Shown here: piece after piece, positions 11,429 to 20,678 of the stretch | Layout of the letters: the number at the start of each line of letters is the position of its first letter | Numbering within the stretch: position 1 is the first letter of the stretch | From: an uncultured Christensenella sp. | GTDB taxonomy: Bacteria > Bacillota > Clostridia > Christensenellales > UBA3700 | Direction: 5' to 3' | Assembly (NCBI GenBank): GCA_949287655.1 | Contig: CASEHD010000010.1 | Coordinates: 100,509 to 164,508, forward strand | DNA length: 64,000 bases | Position numbers and translations under genes: made by a program | The notes under the pieces: model-generated | The model's input: only the letters and a program-made list of their open reading frames with translations | What the model was told of the DNA's origin: nothing | The model's database searches: none

Positions 11429-12436
11429 TCAGGCTTTGTTTTCTGCGCTTTCTGTCGCGGGAGCTGCGGCAGTCTTTCCCGCATAGCGCTCATAATTAAG
11501 TATAACGCCGTTTATCTGCTTGCGCAGGTATGCGCTCGCCATGGCGATAACCGCGCCCGAGATACAAATCGCGCCGTCGGGAAGCACATAAGTGCACTGA
11601 TAGACGAAAGAATAGACCCACACGTTGTCAAAGTCGGACGGCATATACTCTCCGAAGTAGACCGCACCCGAAATAAAGTGGCAGATAAAGCGCGCTATCA
11701 CGCCGAGAAGTATGCCCGAAGCGAGCGCAAGCCCGTCCTTGACGGCGGCGTTTATCGGCAGCTTTGCAAATGTCTTGCGGAATATGCCGCCCAGCGTGCC
11801 GATCAGAGCGAACGGCAGTATGTAGTCGAGAAGAAATTGCACCGGATGCACTATCCACGGGTTTTGCAACGTCTGCAAAAGTCCGCATACAAAGCCCGCG
11901 ATCGTACCCCTTCTTATGCCGAACATATACGAATACAGCGCGAGCGGCAACAGCGAAAACATCGTGATCGAGCCGCCGTACGGCGCATCGTAAAACTTGA
12001 CGTAAGAGAGACCGAACGAGAGCGCGACGCAGACTGCGGCGTAGACGATCGACATCGTGTGCGCCCTGCCCGTAACCTTTTTGCGGTCGATCATAAGAGT
12101 TAGGATCAGCGCGCCGAAAAGCACTATCGTAATCACCGCGATTATCCACGGATAGGCTTTCCCTGACTCGACGAGTCCCGCAAGTCCGTCCTCCATATCC
12201 GTCGTCTTCGATACGTCGACAAGATTGATTATCGTTACGACAAGAGCGTACAGGAGCGCAAACGCAACGCACGCGATAACGGTGATCTTGAAATACTCCT
12301 TCTTTGCAAAACGGACGGCAACGCAGGCGACGATCATAGCCGCAAGCAATATAAGTCCGATGCAGACAAAGGTGCCTTCACGGGTGGAGAAATCGAAATA
12401 CGACGTGTACTCCGCCCCCAAAAGAAAATTGAACAT
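11429..12436 (-). CDS. thiT: ECF transporter S component for thiamine, ThiT type
   Basis: 335 residues. The C-terminal half (about 150-310) is the ThiT fold: GGSITMFSLLPLALYSYMFG, then GFVCGLLQ and WIVHPVQFLLDYILPFALIG. It binds thiamine and works with a shared EcfAAT module that is not in this window. The N-terminal 140 residues add about four extra membrane helices, longer than the usual 180-200-residue ThiT. Start is the ATG at 12436 after AAGGAG; the frame to 12523 runs into the riboswitch. A TPP riboswitch directly upstream confirms the substrate class. Confidence 0.9.
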   Translation of the reverse strand: MFNFLLGAEYTSYFDFSTREGTFVCIGLILLAAMIVACVAVRFAKKEYFKITVIACVAFALLYALVVTIINLVDVSKTTDMEDGLAGLVESGKAYPWIIAVITIVLFGALILTLMIDRKKVTGRAHTMSIVYAAVCVALSFGLSYVKFYDAPYGGSITMFSLLPLALYSYMFGIRRGTIAGFVCGLLQTLQNPWIVHPVQFLLDYILPFALIGTLGGIFRKTFAKLPINAAVKDGLALASGILLGVIARFICHFISGAVYFGEYMPSDFDNVWVYSFVYQCTYVLPDGAICISGAVIAMASAYLRKQINGVILNYERYAGKTAAAPATESAENKA

Positions 12437-12461
12437 AAAAAAACTCCTTAAAGCTAAGGAG
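12437..12461 (-). promoter_or_regulatory. TPP riboswitch expression platform
   Basis: Minus strand CTCCTTA-GCTT-TAAGGAG (7 bp) followed by TTTTTTT and then the ATG. The 3' arm is the Shine-Dalgarno site, so one hairpin can both terminate transcription and hide the ribosome site. Confidence 0.75.
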
Positions 12462-12480
12462 AACTCGAAAATACCTGAAA

Positions 12481-12562
12481 GATTTTTGCTTCCTTTCGCA
12501 AGTACTAACTTGACCAAGTTCAAAGGGTATTTCTCAGCCGACTTCCGCCGGCACCCCTAGCT
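12481..12562 (-). promoter_or_regulatory. TPP riboswitch (THI element)
   Basis: Conserved blocks in order on the minus strand: GGGGTGCC, GGCTGAGAAATACCC, TGAACTTGGTCAAGTTAGTA, and GCGAAAGGAAGC. This is the standard aptamer for thiamine pyrophosphate, here about 45 bases upstream of thiT. Confidence 0.96.
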
Positions 12563-12571
12563 TTTGACTAT

Positions 12572-12642: not shown

Positions 12643-15600
12643 TCAATCACCTTTATATCCCCAGACAACGGGGCGGTTGCCAAAATTCCAACCAGAATTC
12701 CATCCCGCAGGCTGACTTTCGGCTTCGCAGTAAATTGTCAATCCTCTGCACCCGTCAAACGCATACTTCTCGATTACCGTCACGCTGTCCGGGATGATGA
12801 TTTTTTTGATATGACGGCATCCTGCTAATGCAAACGAACTAATGATCTGCACGTCATAAACGTTTTCTTTAAATACAATCTTCTCCGGAATTTTTACTGT
12901 ATCTTCTTTGGTCTTTATATCTGTTACCACCGCAAAACCTTCTTTTAACGCATATTTTATTTCGTCTTTTCTGTAATGGATATTACCGTCCTGAGCACGA
13001 TCGTTATGTTTACAGTCCCACACAACCGCATGTTCAATTGTCATGCTGCGGTAATTAAAATCTGCTTTTGCTGTATTCCAATAACGACTGAATCCGTTTT
13101 TAGGCTTGTCTGCTTCGCAATAGATTATTAACCCTTTGCAATGAGAAAAAACTTCTCTTCCTACAAAATCTATACCGGATGGAATTGTAATAGAATTCAT
13201 CTCTTTGCAGTGCGCAAATGCGTAAGGATCTATTCCTTTGACAGGAATGTCCACCCCGCCGTATTTTACAGATCCGGGTACCGCCACTCTCTCTTTATCG
13301 TTTTCAGCGGGCTGTTGCTCCACATATGCAGCTCCGTCTTTTATCCTGTATCTCAAGCCTTTAAATTCGATATGGATATTACCATATTCGTCAGCCTTAT
13401 TATGTTTACAATCCCACACGATAGGACAAGAATTATTAGTCCCCCGCCAATCAAAATCCCATGATTCCGGTTTGTTTTTAGCTTCGCATGACATAATAGC
13501 ATAACTGCCGACGTCTTCAAAAGCTTTTACGCCCACGTATTCAACACTTTCCGGAATCATAATATGTCGTAATGAGTAACACTGATCGAAAGCGCCGTTA
13601 CCTATTGACTTAACTCCTTGCGGTATTTTGATTTCAATTAAATTTGAACTGTGGTAAAACGCAAATGCGTCTATCTTTTTTATTTTGTCGGGGAATATAT
13701 AATACTTATCCTTTTTCCCGGCAGCATAACAAACCAATACCGTCTTGTCATGACTATATAAATTCCCGTCAATCGACGTATAATAACGATTATCTTTACT
13801 CACTTCTATTGATTCAAGCTTTTCACAAGCATTAAACGAACCCGGTCCGATATATTCTACGCTTTCCGGTATCACGATCTTCTTGATTTCGCGAAGATTA
13901 TATTCAAAATCGGAATCGTCGAAATGGGGATCTACTATCTTTGAAAAAGTTGTTCCGAAGCTTACAACAGGATAGCCGTCGATTGTCGAAGGGATCGTTA
14001 CCTCTATTTCATTCCCCTTGTATTTTGTCAATACGGCTTTTTCATCATGTACTATGTAATTGAAGTTTTCGTTTGAGGTAATGCTCTTTTTCAACTTCCT
14101 TGCTTTTAATCCGCTAAAATCATAAGTCTCATCGGACATATGATAACTTCCAAAGTTTTCTCCCCAAATCTCAGGAAGTCTGTCTGATTCGATTTCAAAT
14201 GTCGTTTTATTTTGAAAACCCATATATGATATATACGTAGTCGATGCCGGCACCATAACAGACGATAACAATGGACATTCGTCAATAGCCTGTTTATTTA
14301 TGACAATTAATCCCATTGGGAGTTCGACGTCTTTAAGATTTTTTGCTCCGCACAATGCGCCGATCCCAATCTCCCTCACCCCGTGCGGCAAGATAAACTT
14401 ATCATTCTGTTTGCCGACAGCGTATTGGACCAGCGTCTTGCCGTCTTTGCTGTACAGATTTCCGTCGATGCTTCTGAAATGCGCATTACCGTCGGCTGCG
14501 GTTATTTCTTCGACTGAACAGCTGCCACAAAACGCATACTCATCTATATGATCAACCTTTTCCGGGAGATGTATTTTCGTTAGATTTTTACACCAACCCA
14601 TAGCACATCTCCCTATATAAGTAAGATTTCGTGAAAGTTCTACGGAGCGTAATTTTACGTTACGCAAAGCATATGTCTCTATTATTTTAACGCTTTCCGG
14701 CATCACGAAAGCATCTGCTGCTTTCGCTTCCGGATATTTTATAAGTTTAGTTATGTTTTTATTATAAAGAACGCCTTCAACACTTTCGAAATATCTGTTT
14801 TTTACGTCAACATTTATGCCTGTCAAAGCAGAACACCTATCGAAAGCCATTTTTCCGATACTCATCACTCGTTCCGGAATAAAGATATCCGTCAAGGCGG
14901 AACAACCGGAAAATGCGCCACGACCTATATTTTCAAGCGCACTGTTTTCAGCAAAAGTTATACTCACAAGAGCGGAACAAAAATCAAATGCGCAATCGTC
15001 TATTGACTTAATACTTCCCGGGATATAAATGCTTTTAAGTAATTTACAATAACTGAAAGCGTCTTTATCTATACTTTCAACCCGAACTGTTTTTCCTTTA
15101 TAATTTATGCTTTCGGGAAGCTCTATGTCTTCGTCAATAGCGCTAAAATGTCCGATAATTGTTGCTGCGCCGTCTTTTATTGCATATTTGATATTTTTAT
15201 CTGATGTATAATATATGTACCCGTTGTCTGCTATATCGTTATTTTTACAATCCCATACAACCGGACGTCTGCCGTACGAATATCTGTAACCGCCGGAATA
15301 ATTCCAAGCATATCCTCCGATATCGTCGTTTTTGCGCATCTCGCAATATACAACAACTTTGTCACAAGAATAAAATGCTCTTTCTCCGATAAATTTAACG
15401 CTTTCAGGTATAACTATCTTATCAAGAGACCAGCAATTGTAAAACGCTTCTTCACCTATGCTTTCCAGGCAACTACCATTGCCAAATCTTACGTCTGCAA
15501 GCGACATGCATCTTGAAAAAGAATGATCGCCTATCCTCTTTACGCTTGCCGGAATGAAAATGTTAATTAAATTATTATGATTTCTAAACGCTCCGTTTGC

Positions 15601-18570
15601 AATATTTTCAACAACATAATTTTTGTTATTTACTGTTATAGAATCCGATATTGTTACGTCATTGCTTATCGTGCAAGGTTGTTTAACTACAACTGCCTTG
15701 TTTTCTGTTAACCCGTATATTATACCCGCCTTATTTATGTATGTTAAAAAACCGCTGACAATTTGTCCTGTACTCCCTTCCCAGGGAAACGACAAACTTT
15801 TCGGATTTCCTTTAAAATAAACTGTTACATGACGGCTGTCATAAAATGCCTTTTTACCTATATTCTCTATCTCAGAAAGAACAATTACGATATTTAATTT
15901 TTCACATTTTCCAAATGCGCAAGCCCCGATTCTCTTTGTTTCCTTAGGAACGACAATTTCATAAAGAGACGAGCATCCTTCAAAAGAATTATCGCCTATT
16001 GACAATATGCTGTCAGGCAAATTTATTTCTTTAAGAGAAACACATTCGTTAAACAACCCGTCGGCAATTTCAGTCAACTTTGACGGCAAAGTGACTTTTT
16101 CAAGAGAACTGCATGAAGAAAAGGCCGCATATTCTATTGACTTAATACTATCAGGCAATATAATTTCTTTGAGTGAGCTGCATTCGTCGAAAGCAAGCCT
16201 TCCTATCGATTCTACTCCTTCGCCGATATTGATTTCCTCAACAGCCGAGCAGCCGCTGAAAGCACTCTCACCGATATCTTTTAAACTGCCGGAAAGATTA
16301 ACCTTTTTAACACCGATGCAACCGGAAAAAGCATCATCCATCAGCGTCTCAACCTTATTCAAAGCAACTTCTTTCAGCTCTTTACATCTTGAAAAAGCGT
16401 TATCTCCTATGGTTCTGACGTTTGACAGCGATTCAAATTTATTAAGTTGTTCACATCCTGAAAAAGCACGATTTCTTACTGAAGTAATGTTTCCTTCTGC
16501 CTTTACCTCTTCAAGCGATACGCAATTGTAAAACGCTTTTTCGGGGATAATCTCTATATTTTCATTTAATTCAACTCTTTTGAGTTTAGTGCAATTTGAA
16601 AATAATCCGCCGCAGAGCTTTGTGACGTTTTCAGGAATAACTACTTCTTCAATTCCGCTTAATTGTACGAAATAGTTTATAATATCCTTCCAATAAGCAT
16701 CAGCGCAATGAGAAAGCAATTCTACCAACTTATTTTCATTGACGATATTTCCTTCATCGTCAAGAACCGCATTGCAATAATACCTTGCGACAAAGTATTC
16801 CCCGTATCTCGCGTGACAAAATACATCTTTTTCCGCGTCGTAAAACGAACGGTATTCAAGATAATCTGTCAGATCCTCTCCGCTGACAACATCTTTTGTC
16901 ACTCCTATATCATCTGCACTTTGTTTTTCTTTTCCGAAAATAGAACGTAATGTTCTTAATACAGACTTGATCAGGATCTTCAGCGCCTCCGTCACCGACG
17001 CCTGATTGGCATCGATATTTTCTATATTCAACAATTTGTCAAATATACGTGCGACTTTCTTCTCAGACATCTTCTTCCCTTTCACGATGCAAATATGTCT
17101 TTCGTAAGCAAAAGCCGACAATATCTTCAATAAATTTTTGGGCACCTTATCGTCTATGCCGAATAACTCTTTTCTGTTTTCGCTTTTAAACATAACCTCG
17201 ACGATAGCGTTCAAAATTTCGACAACGCCTGTTTTTATCTCGCCCGTAAACGCATACAAAAGCAAGAGCTGCGTCAGCATAAGAGGATTCCTCTTTATAT
17301 CGTCTTCGGTATTATTGATCTTCTCCAATACCTCGGCATTATCGACGTCATCTCTTTTTATGCCTTGAAGCTCAGCTTTTTTTAAATAAAGTGAAACTCC
17401 TTTACAATATTCAGATATGTCTTCATCGCTAAAGGAATTTAATTTAGCAATTTTTACCTTTTCAATCCGACCTTCAAACGGATAGCTGTTGTTTTCAGTT
17501 CTGTCCGTGATTATTATTTTGATTTTGCCTTTGCCGTATTCCGACAATGCAATTATAGCTTCTTCAAGTTCGTTTGCTCTCTGCTTGTTTGGAACTTCGT
17601 CCAAAGCGTCAAAGATAACAATGATTTTTCCACTGTTATCCGATAATGTGTTACCCAATAATGTGTTAAAATTTTCCTGAGTATAGAAATCTTTTCCCAC
17701 ACCGCACGTGTTAATAAAATTATTCCTTAACAGTTCGTACAATATCGGATAACCGCTTGTATCCTTGTTTTTGCATTGAGCCACAAATTTTGAAGATTCA
17801 ACGCAGCTTATTGAAAAAACAAGCGATCTTTCTTTTAAATCGCTTTGTCCGATACTTTTAAATATCTGACTTATATAACAACTTTTTCCGCTGCCGCCGG
17901 GCGCAGTTATAAATAATATGTTTGTATCGTCTATCAAACTATTGATTTCTTTATAATCATTATCGTCACAATTGATTGTTCGGGGAATATATAAATCATT
18001 ATAATCGGCAGATTTATATGTAATATCTTTTTGATTGATACCCAACAGACGTGAAATATCCATACTTCGCGACTTAGACGATTGTGCCAAATACACGGCT
18101 CTCATTCTGTAGACGATGCGATCTACGGTTTTATTATAGATTTCGTCTAAAACGCTGTCGTCAAACCCGTTTTCACCGTATTCAATACAGCTTACTTTTA
18201 CGTCATCTCCGATGACAGGCCGATCGTTCTTGTCAACAAATTTTTTCATTATTTTGTGTTGAGGACAAACAATAATCGTCCTGTTTGCGAACTTATCGCC
18301 GGTAGCCTTTTTCCATTCCCTGACCTCGTCTATAACTAAACTTTTTTTATTTTTAATAAGATTTTCAGTTAAAACAAGTATAAAAACAGAAGCGCTTACA
18401 GCCGCACATTCACTCCATTCCTCAAATTCGCCGGAACACTTCTCTTTTGATTCTAAAACCGTAAGTCCTTTTTTTCTCAAATAGTTACAAATAGCATCTT
18501 TTATTGAAGCGTCGAGGTCTGTCCAACTTATAAAAACGTTTCTTTTTGAAATATCGTCTCGTACCGCCAT
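12643..18570 (-). CDS. TIR-NACHT-LRR protein (NLR-like, putative antiphage sensor)
   Basis: A 1975-residue cytosolic protein with no signal peptide or anchor. TIR domain at about 9-155: NVFISWTDLD opens it, and Glu82 in SLVIDEVREW sits where TIR NADases have the catalytic Glu. NACHT-type STAND NTPase at about 215-600: Walker A APGGSGKS (223-230), Walker B IIVIFDALDEV (316-326), sensor-like IIITDR (352-357), NPLML (428-432), and the terminal HARYGEYFVARYY (586-598). From about 640 to the end are BspA-type LRRs of about 23 residues (IG..AF..C..L..I.IP), interrupted by recurring modules with YCEA, W, VVWDCKHN and KDGAA. GAGG precedes the ATG by 7 bases. By analogy with NLR-like bacterial defence proteins, ligand binding to the LRRs would trigger oligomerisation and NAD+ loss. 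The family logic is established; the function here is inference. The DNA is clearly AT-richer than its neighbours. Confidence 0.9.
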   Translation of the reverse strand: MAVRDDISKRNVFISWTDLDASIKDAICNYLRKKGLTVLESKEKCSGEFEEWSECAAVSASVFILVLTENLIKNKKSLVIDEVREWKKATGDKFANRTIIVCPQHKIMKKFVDKNDRPVIGDDVKVSCIEYGENGFDDSVLDEIYNKTVDRIVYRMRAVYLAQSSKSRSMDISRLLGINQKDITYKSADYNDLYIPRTINCDDNDYKEINSLIDDTNILFITAPGGSGKSCYISQIFKSIGQSDLKERSLVFSISCVESSKFVAQCKNKDTSGYPILYELLRNNFINTCGVGKDFYTQENFNTLLGNTLSDNSGKIIVIFDALDEVPNKQRANELEEAIIALSEYGKGKIKIIITDRTENNSYPFEGRIEKVKIAKLNSFSDEDISEYCKGVSLYLKKAELQGIKRDDVDNAEVLEKINNTEDDIKRNPLMLTQLLLLYAFTGEIKTGVVEILNAIVEVMFKSENRKELFGIDDKVPKNLLKILSAFAYERHICIVKGKKMSEKKVARIFDKLLNIENIDANQASVTEALKILIKSVLRTLRSIFGKEKQSADDIGVTKDVVSGEDLTDYLEYRSFYDAEKDVFCHARYGEYFVARYYCNAVLDDEGNIVNENKLVELLSHCADAYWKDIINYFVQLSGIEEVVIPENVTKLCGGLFSNCTKLKRVELNENIEIIPEKAFYNCVSLEEVKAEGNITSVRNRAFSGCEQLNKFESLSNVRTIGDNAFSRCKELKEVALNKVETLMDDAFSGCIGVKKVNLSGSLKDIGESAFSGCSAVEEINIGEGVESIGRLAFDECSSLKEIILPDSIKSIEYAAFSSCSSLEKVTLPSKLTEIADGLFNECVSLKEINLPDSILSIGDNSFEGCSSLYEIVVPKETKRIGACAFGKCEKLNIVIVLSEIENIGKKAFYDSRHVTVYFKGNPKSLSFPWEGSTGQIVSGFLTYINKAGIIYGLTENKAVVVKQPCTISNDVTISDSITVNNKNYVVENIANGAFRNHNNLINIFIPASVKRIGDHSFSRCMSLADVRFGNGSCLESIGEEAFYNCWSLDKIVIPESVKFIGERAFYSCDKVVVYCEMRKNDDIGGYAWNYSGGYRYSYGRRPVVWDCKNNDIADNGYIYYTSDKNIKYAIKDGAATIIGHFSAIDEDIELPESINYKGKTVRVESIDKDAFSYCKLLKSIYIPGSIKSIDDCAFDFCSALVSITFAENSALENIGRGAFSGCSALTDIFIPERVMSIGKMAFDRCSALTGINVDVKNRYFESVEGVLYNKNITKLIKYPEAKAADAFVMPESVKIIETYALRNVKLRSVELSRNLTYIGRCAMGWCKNLTKIHLPEKVDHIDEYAFCGSCSVEEITAADGNAHFRSIDGNLYSKDGKTLVQYAVGKQNDKFILPHGVREIGIGALCGAKNLKDVELPMGLIVINKQAIDECPLLSSVMVPASTTYISYMGFQNKTTFEIESDRLPEIWGENFGSYHMSDETYDFSGLKARKLKKSITSNENFNYIVHDEKAVLTKYKGNEIEVTIPSTIDGYPVVSFGTTFSKIVDPHFDDSDFEYNLREIKKIVIPESVEYIGPGSFNACEKLESIEVSKDNRYYTSIDGNLYSHDKTVLVCYAAGKKDKYYIFPDKIKKIDAFAFYHSSNLIEIKIPQGVKSIGNGAFDQCYSLRHIMIPESVEYVGVKAFEDVGSYAIMSCEAKNKPESWDFDWRGTNNSCPIVWDCKHNKADEYGNIHIEFKGLRYRIKDGAAYVEQQPAENDKERVAVPGSVKYGGVDIPVKGIDPYAFAHCKEMNSITIPSGIDFVGREVFSHCKGLIIYCEADKPKNGFSRYWNTAKADFNYRSMTIEHAVVWDCKHNDRAQDGNIHYRKDEIKYALKEGFAVVTDIKTKEDTVKIPEKIVFKENVYDVQIISSFALAGCRHIKKIIIPDSVTVIEKYAFDGCRGLTIYCEAESQPAGWNSGWNFGNRPVVWGYKGD

Positions 18571-18602: not shown

Positions 18603-18631
18603 ATATTATCATAGCTTATAACATTTGTCAA
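18603..18631 (-). promoter_or_regulatory. Promoter of TIR-NACHT-LRR gene
   Basis: TTGACA (18626-18631), 17-base spacer, TAATAT (18603-18608); leader about 26 nt. A second TTGACA lies at about 18650-18655 without a matching -10. Confidence 0.75.
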
Positions 18632-18696
18632 TACTTAACTGTTATATTAATGTCAAATATAGGTAAATAACGGTAAGAAATCGTACTTTGCAAAAA

Positions 18697-19229
18697 GACA
18701 AAAAAAAGACCCGCGGTAATACTCTTGCGGTATTATCGCGGGGATTTGACGCAGTATCAATTCATATTTTACACACTGAACCAAGCAATTAATATTGCCG
18801 GAGCGACCTACGAAATTACGTCTGCGAAGCGTTTTGAGCAAGAAAAACGGTAACCGTTAGCTGCTCTCCATAATTGCCGAAGAAGGCGGCGAGAACAGTC
18901 AGCGCATGCGGTTTTGAGCAGAAAAATTTGTATTCAGACAAGAAAAAGACCCGCGGTAATACTCTTGCGGTATTATCGCGGGGATTTGACGCAGTATCAA
19001 TTCAAACCAAACAATTATATTGCCGGAGCGACCGACGAAATTACGTCTGCGAAGCGTTATGAGCGAGAAAAACGGTAACCGTTAGACGTTCTCCATAATT
19101 GCCGAAGAAGGCGGTGAGAACAGTCAGCGTAAGCGGTTTTGAGCAGAAAAATTTGTATTCAGACAAGAAAAAGACCCGCGGTAATACTCTTGCGGTATTA
19201 TCGCGGGGATTTGACGCAGTATCAATTCA
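18697..19229. repeat. Tandem repeat array, about 2.3 units of 225-240 bp
   Basis: Unit 1 at about 18697-18936, unit 2 at 18937-19161, partial unit 3 at 19162-19229. Each starts with a near-identical 68-base block holding the hairpin CCGCGGTAATAC / GGTATTATCGCGG (hairpins at 18710-18743, 18950-18983, 19175-19208). Read on the minus strand, each hairpin ends in a U-run, so each is a terminator. The rest of the unit shares ATTGCCGGAGCGACC, the palindrome AACGGTAACCGTT and GCCGAAGAAGGCGG. A 26-base near-copy of the last element lies inverted at 19235-19260, after pgi. No convincing ORF is found. Not a CRISPR: the repeats are long and there are no spacers. Confidence 0.85.
19165..19208 (-). terminator. 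Terminator of pgi (third array hairpin)
   Basis: Minus strand CCGCGATAATACC-GCAAGA-GTATTACCGCGG followed by GTCTTTTTCTTG, about 55 bases after the pgi stop. Two more copies follow downstream at 18940-18983 and 18700-18743. Confidence 0.8.
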
Positions 19230-19262
19230 AAAAACACTGTTCGAGCCGCCTTCTTCGGCAGA

Positions 19263-20678
19263 CTAAATAATATACTTATTCAACTTCTGCGGCGCGTTGG
19301 CGAGTTCAGCCCTCTTTTCATCGTAACCGGGACGGCCGAGAAGCGCATAGGTCGCGTTCTTACCCTCTTCGACGCCGGGCTGGTTGAAGGTGTCGATACC
19401 CATCAGCGCGCCGGCGTAAGCGGTCTTGAGCATGAAGAACATCAAAAGTTCGCCGAGCGTGAATTCGTTGAGCACGGGGAGCATTATCGTATGATTGAGC
19501 TTGCCCGCCTTGGTCAGCGCGTATTCGGTAGCCTTTCTTTCCGCGGTGATGAGTTCGTTCATCGTATGACCGCACAGGAAATTGACGTTGGGGAAATCTT
19601 CGCAGCCTTCAGGGATCATTACCTCTGCGCGGTAGTTGTCGACGCCGATAAAGGTGATGACCTTGTCGAACGGACCTTCGGCATAAAGCTGGACCTGGCT
19701 GTGCTGATCGGTAACGCCGAGGGATTTGACCGGGGTCTGACCCTTATTGCAAGCGGTGCCGTCGAGGTTCTTATTCTTGCCCAGGCTTTCAGCCCACAGC
19801 TGAGCGTACCAGTCCGCGACGTATTTGAGACCGTCCGCGTAAGGCATCATGACGGAGATATTTTTACCTCTCTTCATCGCCATATATTGCATAAGCGCGG
19901 CGAGAAGCGCGGGGTTTTTCTTGACGTTGGGGGTATTGCACTGCTCGTCCATACAGCGCGCGCCCTGCAGAAGCCCTTTGATATCAATATTAACGACCGC
20001 CGCGGGGAGCAGACCGACCGGGCAAAGTTCGCTGAATCTGCCGCCGACGCCGTCGGGGATATAGAAAGTCTTATAACCCTCTTTCTGCGCGATCTTTATA
20101 AGGTTGCCGCTGTTTGCGGAAGTGGTCGCGATAATGTGATCTTTTGCCTTATCTCCCAGTTTAGCTTTGAGAATATCGTTGATGATGAGGTACTGGGTCA
20201 TCGTCTCAGACGTACTGCCCGACTTCGTGATCACGTTGAACATCGTCTTTTCAACGTCGATAACGTCGAAAAGCGCCGCCATTCTTTCAGGGTCGACGTT
20301 GTCCTCAACATAGAATTTGGGTCCCTTTCTCCTGCGTTTGGGCAGGTCGTTGTAATGCAGGTGGCAGATAGCCTGGAAAGCCGCGATCGGACCGAGCGCG
20401 CTGCCGCCGATGCCGAGAACGACGAAATATTCGAAATTCTTGCGGACGTACTTAGCGGTCGCGAGGATATCTTCGACGACCTCGTCCTGATTGTAAGGAA
20501 GTTCAGTCCAACCCATCATGCCCTTACCTCTGCCGGCGGCGACGGCTGCGAAAGCCGCCTCTACCTCTTCGACGTAAGAAGCTATCTGTCTTTCGGTAAA
20601 TCCTTCGTGACCGACTGACTTACTCATCATATTGTTGAAATCCACGCGGATTCTGAGTTCTTTTTTGTTATAACGCAT
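19263..20678 (-). CDS. pgi: Glucose-6-phosphate isomerase
   Basis: Interconverts glucose 6-phosphate and fructose 6-phosphate. At 471 residues it is the shorter bacterial type. Seen are the SIS-domain motifs VVLGIGGSALGP (about 86-97), ITKSGSTSETMTQ (about 149) and PDGVGGRFSELCPVGLLPA, the active-site Glu region and the C-terminal FNQPGVEEGK with the catalytic Lys. AAAGGAG lies before the ATG. It has its own promoter. Confidence 0.97.
   Translation of the reverse strand: MRYNKKELRIRVDFNNMMSKSVGHEGFTERQIASYVEEVEAAFAAVAAGRGKGMMGWTELPYNQDEVVEDILATAKYVRKNFEYFVVLGIGGSALGPIAAFQAICHLHYNDLPKRRRKGPKFYVEDNVDPERMAALFDVIDVEKTMFNVITKSGSTSETMTQYLIINDILKAKLGDKAKDHIIATTSANSGNLIKIAQKEGYKTFYIPDGVGGRFSELCPVGLLPAAVVNIDIKGLLQGARCMDEQCNTPNVKKNPALLAALMQYMAMKRGKNISVMMPYADGLKYVADWYAQLWAESLGKNKNLDGTACNKGQTPVKSLGVTDQHSQVQLYAEGPFDKVITFIGVDNYRAEVMIPEGCEDFPNVNFLCGHTMNELITAERKATEYALTKAGKLNHTIMLPVLNEFTLGELLMFFMLKTAYAGALMGIDTFNQPGVEEGKNATYALLGRPGYDEKRAELANAPQKLNKYII

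Follow-up and report, generated by a model that had tools for sequence, protein, structure and literature searches.

A chromosomal slot holding very different versions of a TIR–NACHT–LRR gene, or none, suggests a fast-evolving bacterial sensor

A long solo gene among housekeeping genes

The window, which is the whole 64,000-nucleotide stretch of DNA analysed here, comes from a metagenome-derived genome of a gut bacterium in the genus Candidatus Ornithoclostridium (Christensenellales) and carries the candidate receptor gene described below together with the features collected in Table 1. A preliminary description of this DNA had reported an uninterrupted frame of 1975 codons, and we find the frame intact at exactly positions 12643-18570; to this we add the strand, which had been left unstated, as the gene reads on the minus strand from 18570 to 12643. 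Among 200 shuffles of the gene's own bases the longest stop-free run was 209 codons. The G+C content of the gene is 0.38 and that of the surrounding genome region is approximately 0.50. Upstream lie genes for phosphoglucose isomerase (PGI), a TIM-barrel protein and an MMPL protein, and downstream lie a TPP riboswitch, the thiamine transporter gene and the gene for IF3. Because these neighbours on both sides are housekeeping genes, the receptor gene stands alone and belongs to no defence island, and no recurring partner gene was found beside it across the loci examined.

Table 1. Features of the receptor locus (window coordinates).
Feature	Residues	Coordinates	Strand	Basis or remark
TIR–NACHT–LRR_5 gene	1-1975	12643..18570	minus	1975 aa, intact
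TIR domain	9-155	18106..18546	minus	Pfam TIR_2 and structure match; Glu82 codon 18325-18327
NACHT NTPase with HD1, winged-helix and HD2	150-639	16654..18123	minus	motifs, Pfam and structure
BspA-type LRR array	640-1975	12643..16653	minus	LRR_5 profile, 4gt6/4fs7, repeat listing, partial model
Sigma-70-like promoter, TTGACA-17-TAATAT		18603..18631	minus	about 30 bp 5' of receptor start; consensus match only
Intergenic repeats, two 225-bp units and partial third		18690..19230		between PGI and receptor gene
PGI gene		19263..20678	minus	near edge of slot
TPP riboswitch of downstream thiamine transporter		12474..12568	minus	marks far edge of slot
Thiamine transporter gene (Thia_YuaJ, ThiT)		11429..12523	minus	far edge of slot

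Each of the intergenic repeat units carries a terminator-like hairpin, and the core of the repeat recurs in about seven more partial copies elsewhere in the same genome. Similar repeats border the corresponding site in sister species, where several assemblies break.

A TIR domain joined to a NACHT module

The first 639 residues were modelled with AlphaFold2 from ten aligned relatives (mean pLDDT 77.8). The preliminary description had assigned a TIR domain to the N-terminus and proposed a structural check, and the outcome favours the assignment: modelled residues 9-149 superimpose on the TIR domain of SARM1 (Z 14.8, rmsd 2.9, 126 residues aligned) and on that of grapevine RUN1 (Z 13.9). At the level of sequence, Pfam TIR_2 matches residues 12-93 at 22.6 bits, which is under the curated cut-off of 28 that relatives clear at 29-40 bits. 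A TIR profile searched against PDB sequences retrieved no TIR chain, the match having come from fold comparison. Glu82, which had been placed at the NADase position, is kept in all ten aligned sequences and sits in helix 79-93 (alpha-C) of the predicted model, in agreement with that placement; in a profile alignment to the other TIR domains of the order it falls one residue off the reference Glu, inside a gapped loop. Some TIR domains act as scaffolds and not as enzymes.

The central module carries a Walker A motif (GGSGK), a Walker B motif (DALDE), a sensor (TDR), an NP motif and a winged-helix histidine (FCH), and every motif quoted in the preliminary description (APGGSGKS, IIVIFDALDEV, NPLML and HARYGEYFVARYY) is present in the protein. 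An NPHP3_N-type NTPase scores above the Pfam cut-off over residues 204-357. No match to the Pfam NACHT model is listed for the window protein, although that model is above its cut-off in the relative P0003 (34.1 versus 26.7), and matches to NB-ARC are sub-threshold only. When an NTPase profile was compared with PDB sequences, NOD2 was the best match (E 0.001). Modelled residues 150-639 resemble NLRC4 from the NAIP5–NLRC4 structure (Z 19.5, rmsd 4.9, 374 residues aligned), NOD2 (Z 17.9) and NLRP3 (Z 17.6); NACHT proteins are thus the closest folds (Z 15-19.5), with plant RPP1 at Z 12.8. RPP1, a plant TIR-NLR, is the top Foldseek match when the whole 1-639 model is used, over residues 6-632. The GxGK, DxxDE, sensor Arg, Asn-Pro and FxH winged-helix His elements are retained in eight of eight NACHT modules. 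With this invariant core, the NACHT–HD–WHD arrangement and the fold matches, the earlier claim of a complete NACHT/STAND NTPase stands.

The LRR array and the predicted location of the protein

The approximately 1330 residues of BspA-type LRRs that had been described are borne out by Pfam LRR_5, which matches in 11 stretches (E = 9e-172), and by the solved BspA-like chains 4gt6 and 4fs7, which match the array. The array is built in blocks, three of which are closed by a cap-like YCE...VVW motif. A model of the LRRs made from the single sequence is poor except at about residues 690-890, and its overall curvature was left unused.

Within the first 60 residues the highest 19-residue Kyte-Doolittle mean is 0.42, as against 2.4-3.2 for the LRR_5 lipoproteins of the same genome, and the window protein has no BspA-type export signal or lipobox. 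No signal peptide-like or membrane segment was seen in the nine TIR–NACHT–LRR relatives examined. The reported absence of a signal peptide is therefore supported by hydropathy, and a cryptic export signal was not seen. Apart from the receptor gene, the genome (contigs 9, 11, 12, 14, 16, 17 and 18) holds about ten genes for LRR_5 proteins. For six of these, including one with a product of 1862 aa, the N-terminus was read; all six products look exported or membrane-anchored, having clear hydrophobic N-termini and in most cases a lipobox-like Cys. Because these other LRR_5 proteins look exported, the predicted use of such repeats in the cytosol is unusual, as the preliminary description had remarked.

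That the array was captured recently from LRR_5 lipoproteins of the same genome was considered and is disfavoured, since the window LRRs are closer to those of most other TIR–NACHT–LRR proteins than to the six local lipoproteins examined. The G+C content also counts against recent local capture (0.39 versus 0.46-0.58 for the lipoproteins).

Relatives within the order

A scan of 84,980 genome species returned nine loci, all in Clostridia metagenome assemblies, several of which are named from caecum samples. In a profile search of the order, 13 of 396 genomes matched at E 1e-12. The same kind of search found no further TIR–NACHT–LRR_5 gene in the sampled genomes, 391 from the class and 398 from the phylum, where two partial matches to the NTPase region were the only returns. 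Searches of phages and viral contigs gave no relatives of the receptor, and a plasmid search gave two weak NACHT matches only.

The domain order that the preliminary description had proposed to look for in other genomes does recur across the order. The NACHT module leads directly into the LRRs in the window protein and in L062, L063 and L013, and about 300 extra residues separate the two in L014 and L064-L066. More distant members occur in two other families of Christensenellales: L103 has the TIR–NACHT–LRR_5 order, and L098 and L101, both cut off by a contig end, jointly show it. In L097, L099 and L100 the TIR–NACHT core carries N-terminal Sel1 repeats in place of the LRRs. As LRRs are kept in some relatives and Sel1 repeats are found in others, the sensor looks like a replaceable part.

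At L013 (3266-12565, genome G080 of the same genus) the receptor lies at another site, between genes for an AbiEii toxin and an AAA_14/DUF4143 ATPase. At L017 (4993-10275) a Sel1-repeat TIR–NACHT gene adjoins a shorter gene with a near-identical Sel1-repeat N-terminus. The second NACHT-scoring gene of the window's genome (L001/L019) was rejected as a paralogue of the receptor, as its product is a TIR–STAND protein whose sensor differs; this product (L019 6209-9937, contig 18 of G000) is 1242 aa long and has a repeat-like C-terminus and no LRRs.

One slot, divergent alleles or no gene

The site between the PGI and thiamine transporter genes was compared in 13 genomes of the genus, a slot being counted as occupied when the receptor lies in this interval or, where the contig stops early, adjacent to PGI. 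The receptor occupies the slot in four species, which are those of the window, L067 (Ca. Ornithoclostridium faecavium), L062 and L063. In four others (G303, G285, G265 and G396) the interval is 437-503 bases long and holds no gene. Two assemblies (G275 and G357) break at the slot and two genomes (G080 and G397) have a different arrangement. In the remaining genome, G312, the gene at this position encodes a BspA LRR_5 lipoprotein, about 420 aa long (L084 7328-9684, reverse strand); its presence there may be a coincidence or a clue to how LRR modules reach the slot.

Identity of the flanking DNA is 78-90% all the way to either end of the receptor gene. By blastn the window gene shows no resemblance to the other slot alleles, whose proteins are 37-42% identical to that of the window. 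In amino acid sequence, the PGI of the window is 96-99% identical to its counterparts in L067, L062 and L063. Nearly all comparisons of a receptor gene with the window allele show saturation at synonymous sites, and the dS of PGI is 0.16-0.53. Faster amino acid substitution was accordingly rejected as the only cause of the divergence, because synonymous sites are saturated too, and the contrast with the low dS of PGI points to replacement by long-separated alleles and not only to fast change. Transposon insertion was also considered; no target-site duplication stood out on reading the slot sequences in parallel. As judged from these sequence comparisons, the receptor is an allelic, presence/absence locus in this genus.

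The alleles at L062 and L063 differ from one another in an uneven manner. Their TIR domains share 45% of amino acids with saturated dS, and the first part of their NACHT modules shares 90% with a dS of 0.31, the switch being abrupt near residue 160 at the TIR–NACHT joint. Similarity drops again towards the LRRs (59%, dS 1.1). This pattern fits exchange of the TIR module, although both are metagenome assemblies, which leaves a residual chance of chimaeric assembly.

Proposed function and alternatives

Taken with the domains, the catalytic and nucleotide-binding residues, the absence of an export signal and the solo gene, the slot and the mosaic lead us to propose, with fair but not strong confidence, that the gene encodes a self-contained cytosolic NLR-type NADase receptor for abortive infection that is triggered through its LRRs and exchanged as alleles. 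The proposal draws on sequence and predicted structure, and for oligomerisation, NADase activity, a phage trigger and cell death it leans on established NLR and TIR biology. The BspA-type LRR array would keep the receptor inactive and would bind a molecule of an invader inside the cell, a phage protein being the likeliest candidate. On binding, the NACHT module would exchange nucleotide and oligomerise, and the oligomer would gather the TIR domains so that NAD+ could be cleaved through Glu82, leading to growth arrest or death of the infected cell. Through the homologous flanks, divergent alleles would be able to pass between lineages, as would the TIR module on its own. The preliminary description had held that one gene may form a complete system. 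The solo gene with its own promoter-like site and its TIR–NACHT–LRR order makes a one-gene system plausible, and the activity that such a system would require is predicted. In favour of the proposal, the named NACHT–LRR, TIR–NACHT and TIR-NLR relatives are themselves antiphage or have been described so (PMC12169576, PMC10952713, PMC9122126). Several observations count against it. The receptor lies amid housekeeping genes outside a defence island, for six family members PADLOC matched no model of an antiphage NLR or of Avs convincingly, and the searches of phages and viral contigs gave no relatives. For the TIR domain, the sub-threshold TIR_2 score of the window protein, the one-residue shift of Glu82 in the profile alignment and the existence of scaffold TIR domains fall on the same side. 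We suggest only tentatively that the slot is a polymorphic receptor locus, in which whole alleles and TIR and LRR modules are recombined among gut Clostridia under phage selection, and the likeness of this one chromosomal slot to plant and animal receptor loci is offered with the same reserve. More simply, a slot that holds very different versions of a gene, or nothing, points to a bacterial sensor that evolves fast and whose targets are probably phages.

An activated TIR domain might instead produce a cyclic ADP-ribose isomer, which would turn on a separate effector encoded at another place in the genome, so that the outcome would be signalling and not suicide. In Thoeris the product of ThsB switches on ThsA, and the N-terminus of the receptor weakly resembles ThsB in PADLOC (E 0.02). 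Prokaryotic and plant TIR domains are also reported to yield cADPR isomers among their products (PMC10022894). A search of the genome for a STALD/ThsA-type domain gave no match, with its control equally silent. Because no effector gene adjoins the receptor at any locus examined, we prefer direct NAD+ depletion and regard signalling as unlikely. The LRRs might also read a marker of self or non-self, for example a surface or conjugation protein that is polymorphic, in allorecognition or in sensing of competitors. Fungal incompatibility NLR genes provide a model for divergent alleles at one locus, which is how alleles only 37-42% identical could be understood, and the LRR_5 lipoprotein that occupies the slot in one species can be counted on the same side. 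However, the finding that roughly half of the resolved species have an empty slot fits phage defence also, and the slot showed no gene for a partner antigen; we consider allorecognition or competitor sensing improbable.

Two further explanations are much less probable still. If the gene were decaying, its divergence would reflect lost constraint on a drifting frame, for which the very divergent alleles and the truncated members might speak. The truncated copies, however, stop at contig ends, frames of 933-1975 codons are intact, the catalytic and nucleotide-binding residues are invariant, and dN is well under dS in every measurable segment of the L062 and L063 pair, so that decay has very little to recommend it. 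Even harder to credit is export of the product to serve, as other BspA proteins do, in adhesion or host interaction, with a TIR domain acting outside the cell. The LRR part does resemble surface proteins, as 4gt6 is a solved 'cell surface protein' and the HupY/LrrG adhesin model matches at E 1e-57, though far below its cut-off. Against this, the nine relatives without a signal peptide-like or membrane segment differ from the six LRR_5 proteins of the genome with hydrophobic N-termini, and no role outside the cell is known for an ATP-dependent NACHT switch. A cytosolic receptor that depletes NAD+ remains the reading that we favour.

Comparison with known systems

Plant TNLs combine a TIR domain, a STAND NTPase and LRRs. 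The preliminary description had called the window protein plant TNL-like, which is apt for the architecture and the TIR fold, both held in common with RPP1 and RUN1. The comparison fails for the NTPase: that of plant TNLs is of the NB-ARC (AP-ATPase) type, a type not found in the window protein, whose NTPase is a NACHT closest to those of NLRC4 and NOD2 and whose LRRs are BspA-type. With animal NLRC4, NOD2 and NLRP3 it shares the NACHT–HD1–WHD–HD2 fold (374 residues, Z 19.5), but the effector of animal NACHT–LRR proteins is a CARD or PYD and here it is an enzyme-type TIR domain. A TNL-like order with an animal-type NACHT core should help in asking whether such receptors took shape in bacteria or came together several times over from a common set of parts.

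Among bacterial systems, Avs (AVAST) proteins likewise place a STAND NTPase, an effector and a long C-terminal sensor in a single gene; to our knowledge their sensors are not BspA LRRs, and the Avs protein models of PADLOC matched none of the six family members. Thoeris has an adjacent ThsA effector, in place of which the window receptor has ThiT, IF3, PGI, TIM-barrel and MMPL neighbours. In NACHT/STAND sensors diversified by DGRs a retroelement diversifies the recognition part (PMC10907252), and at the window locus the corresponding variation would come from exchange of alleles and modules at the slot.

The architecture has more precedent than had been implied. Bacterial NACHT–LRR proteins have been reported as 'bona fide bacterial NLRs' (Kibby et al. 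2023, as cited in PMC12169576), with a tripartite effector–NACHT–sensor logic (PMC12169576). By that citing description, the window protein has in common with them a NACHT switch and LRRs in one frame, the order of parts and the single gene, including a NACHT core with Walker A, D-x-x-D-E and winged helix and a C-terminal LRR in-frame; it differs in its TIR effector, its BspA-type LRRs and its apparently allelic slot with mosaics. TIR effectors on bacterial NACHT proteins have also been reported (PMC10952713). A TIR-NLR protein of P4-like satellites protects E. coli from phage (Rousset et al. 2022, PMC9122126) and, as described, is likewise a single system with a TIR domain and an NLR-type ATPase; it is satellite-borne, and the passages found on it mention no LRR, whereas the window receptor is chromosomal and has LRRs. 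For BspA-type LRRs on a TIR–NACHT protein, or an allelic slot for them, our search found no paper, many subscription papers lying outside it.

What is new here, beyond the earlier view of a single window, is the genetics that the sequences indicate, namely the allelic slot and the TIR/NACHT mosaic. The locus also shows an LRR of the exported-adhesin type used inside the cell as the likely sensor. How LRR variation and TIR swaps affect specificity is a question that is hard to approach with isolated bacterial NLRs, and the slot offers a natural allelic series for it in four occupied and four empty species.
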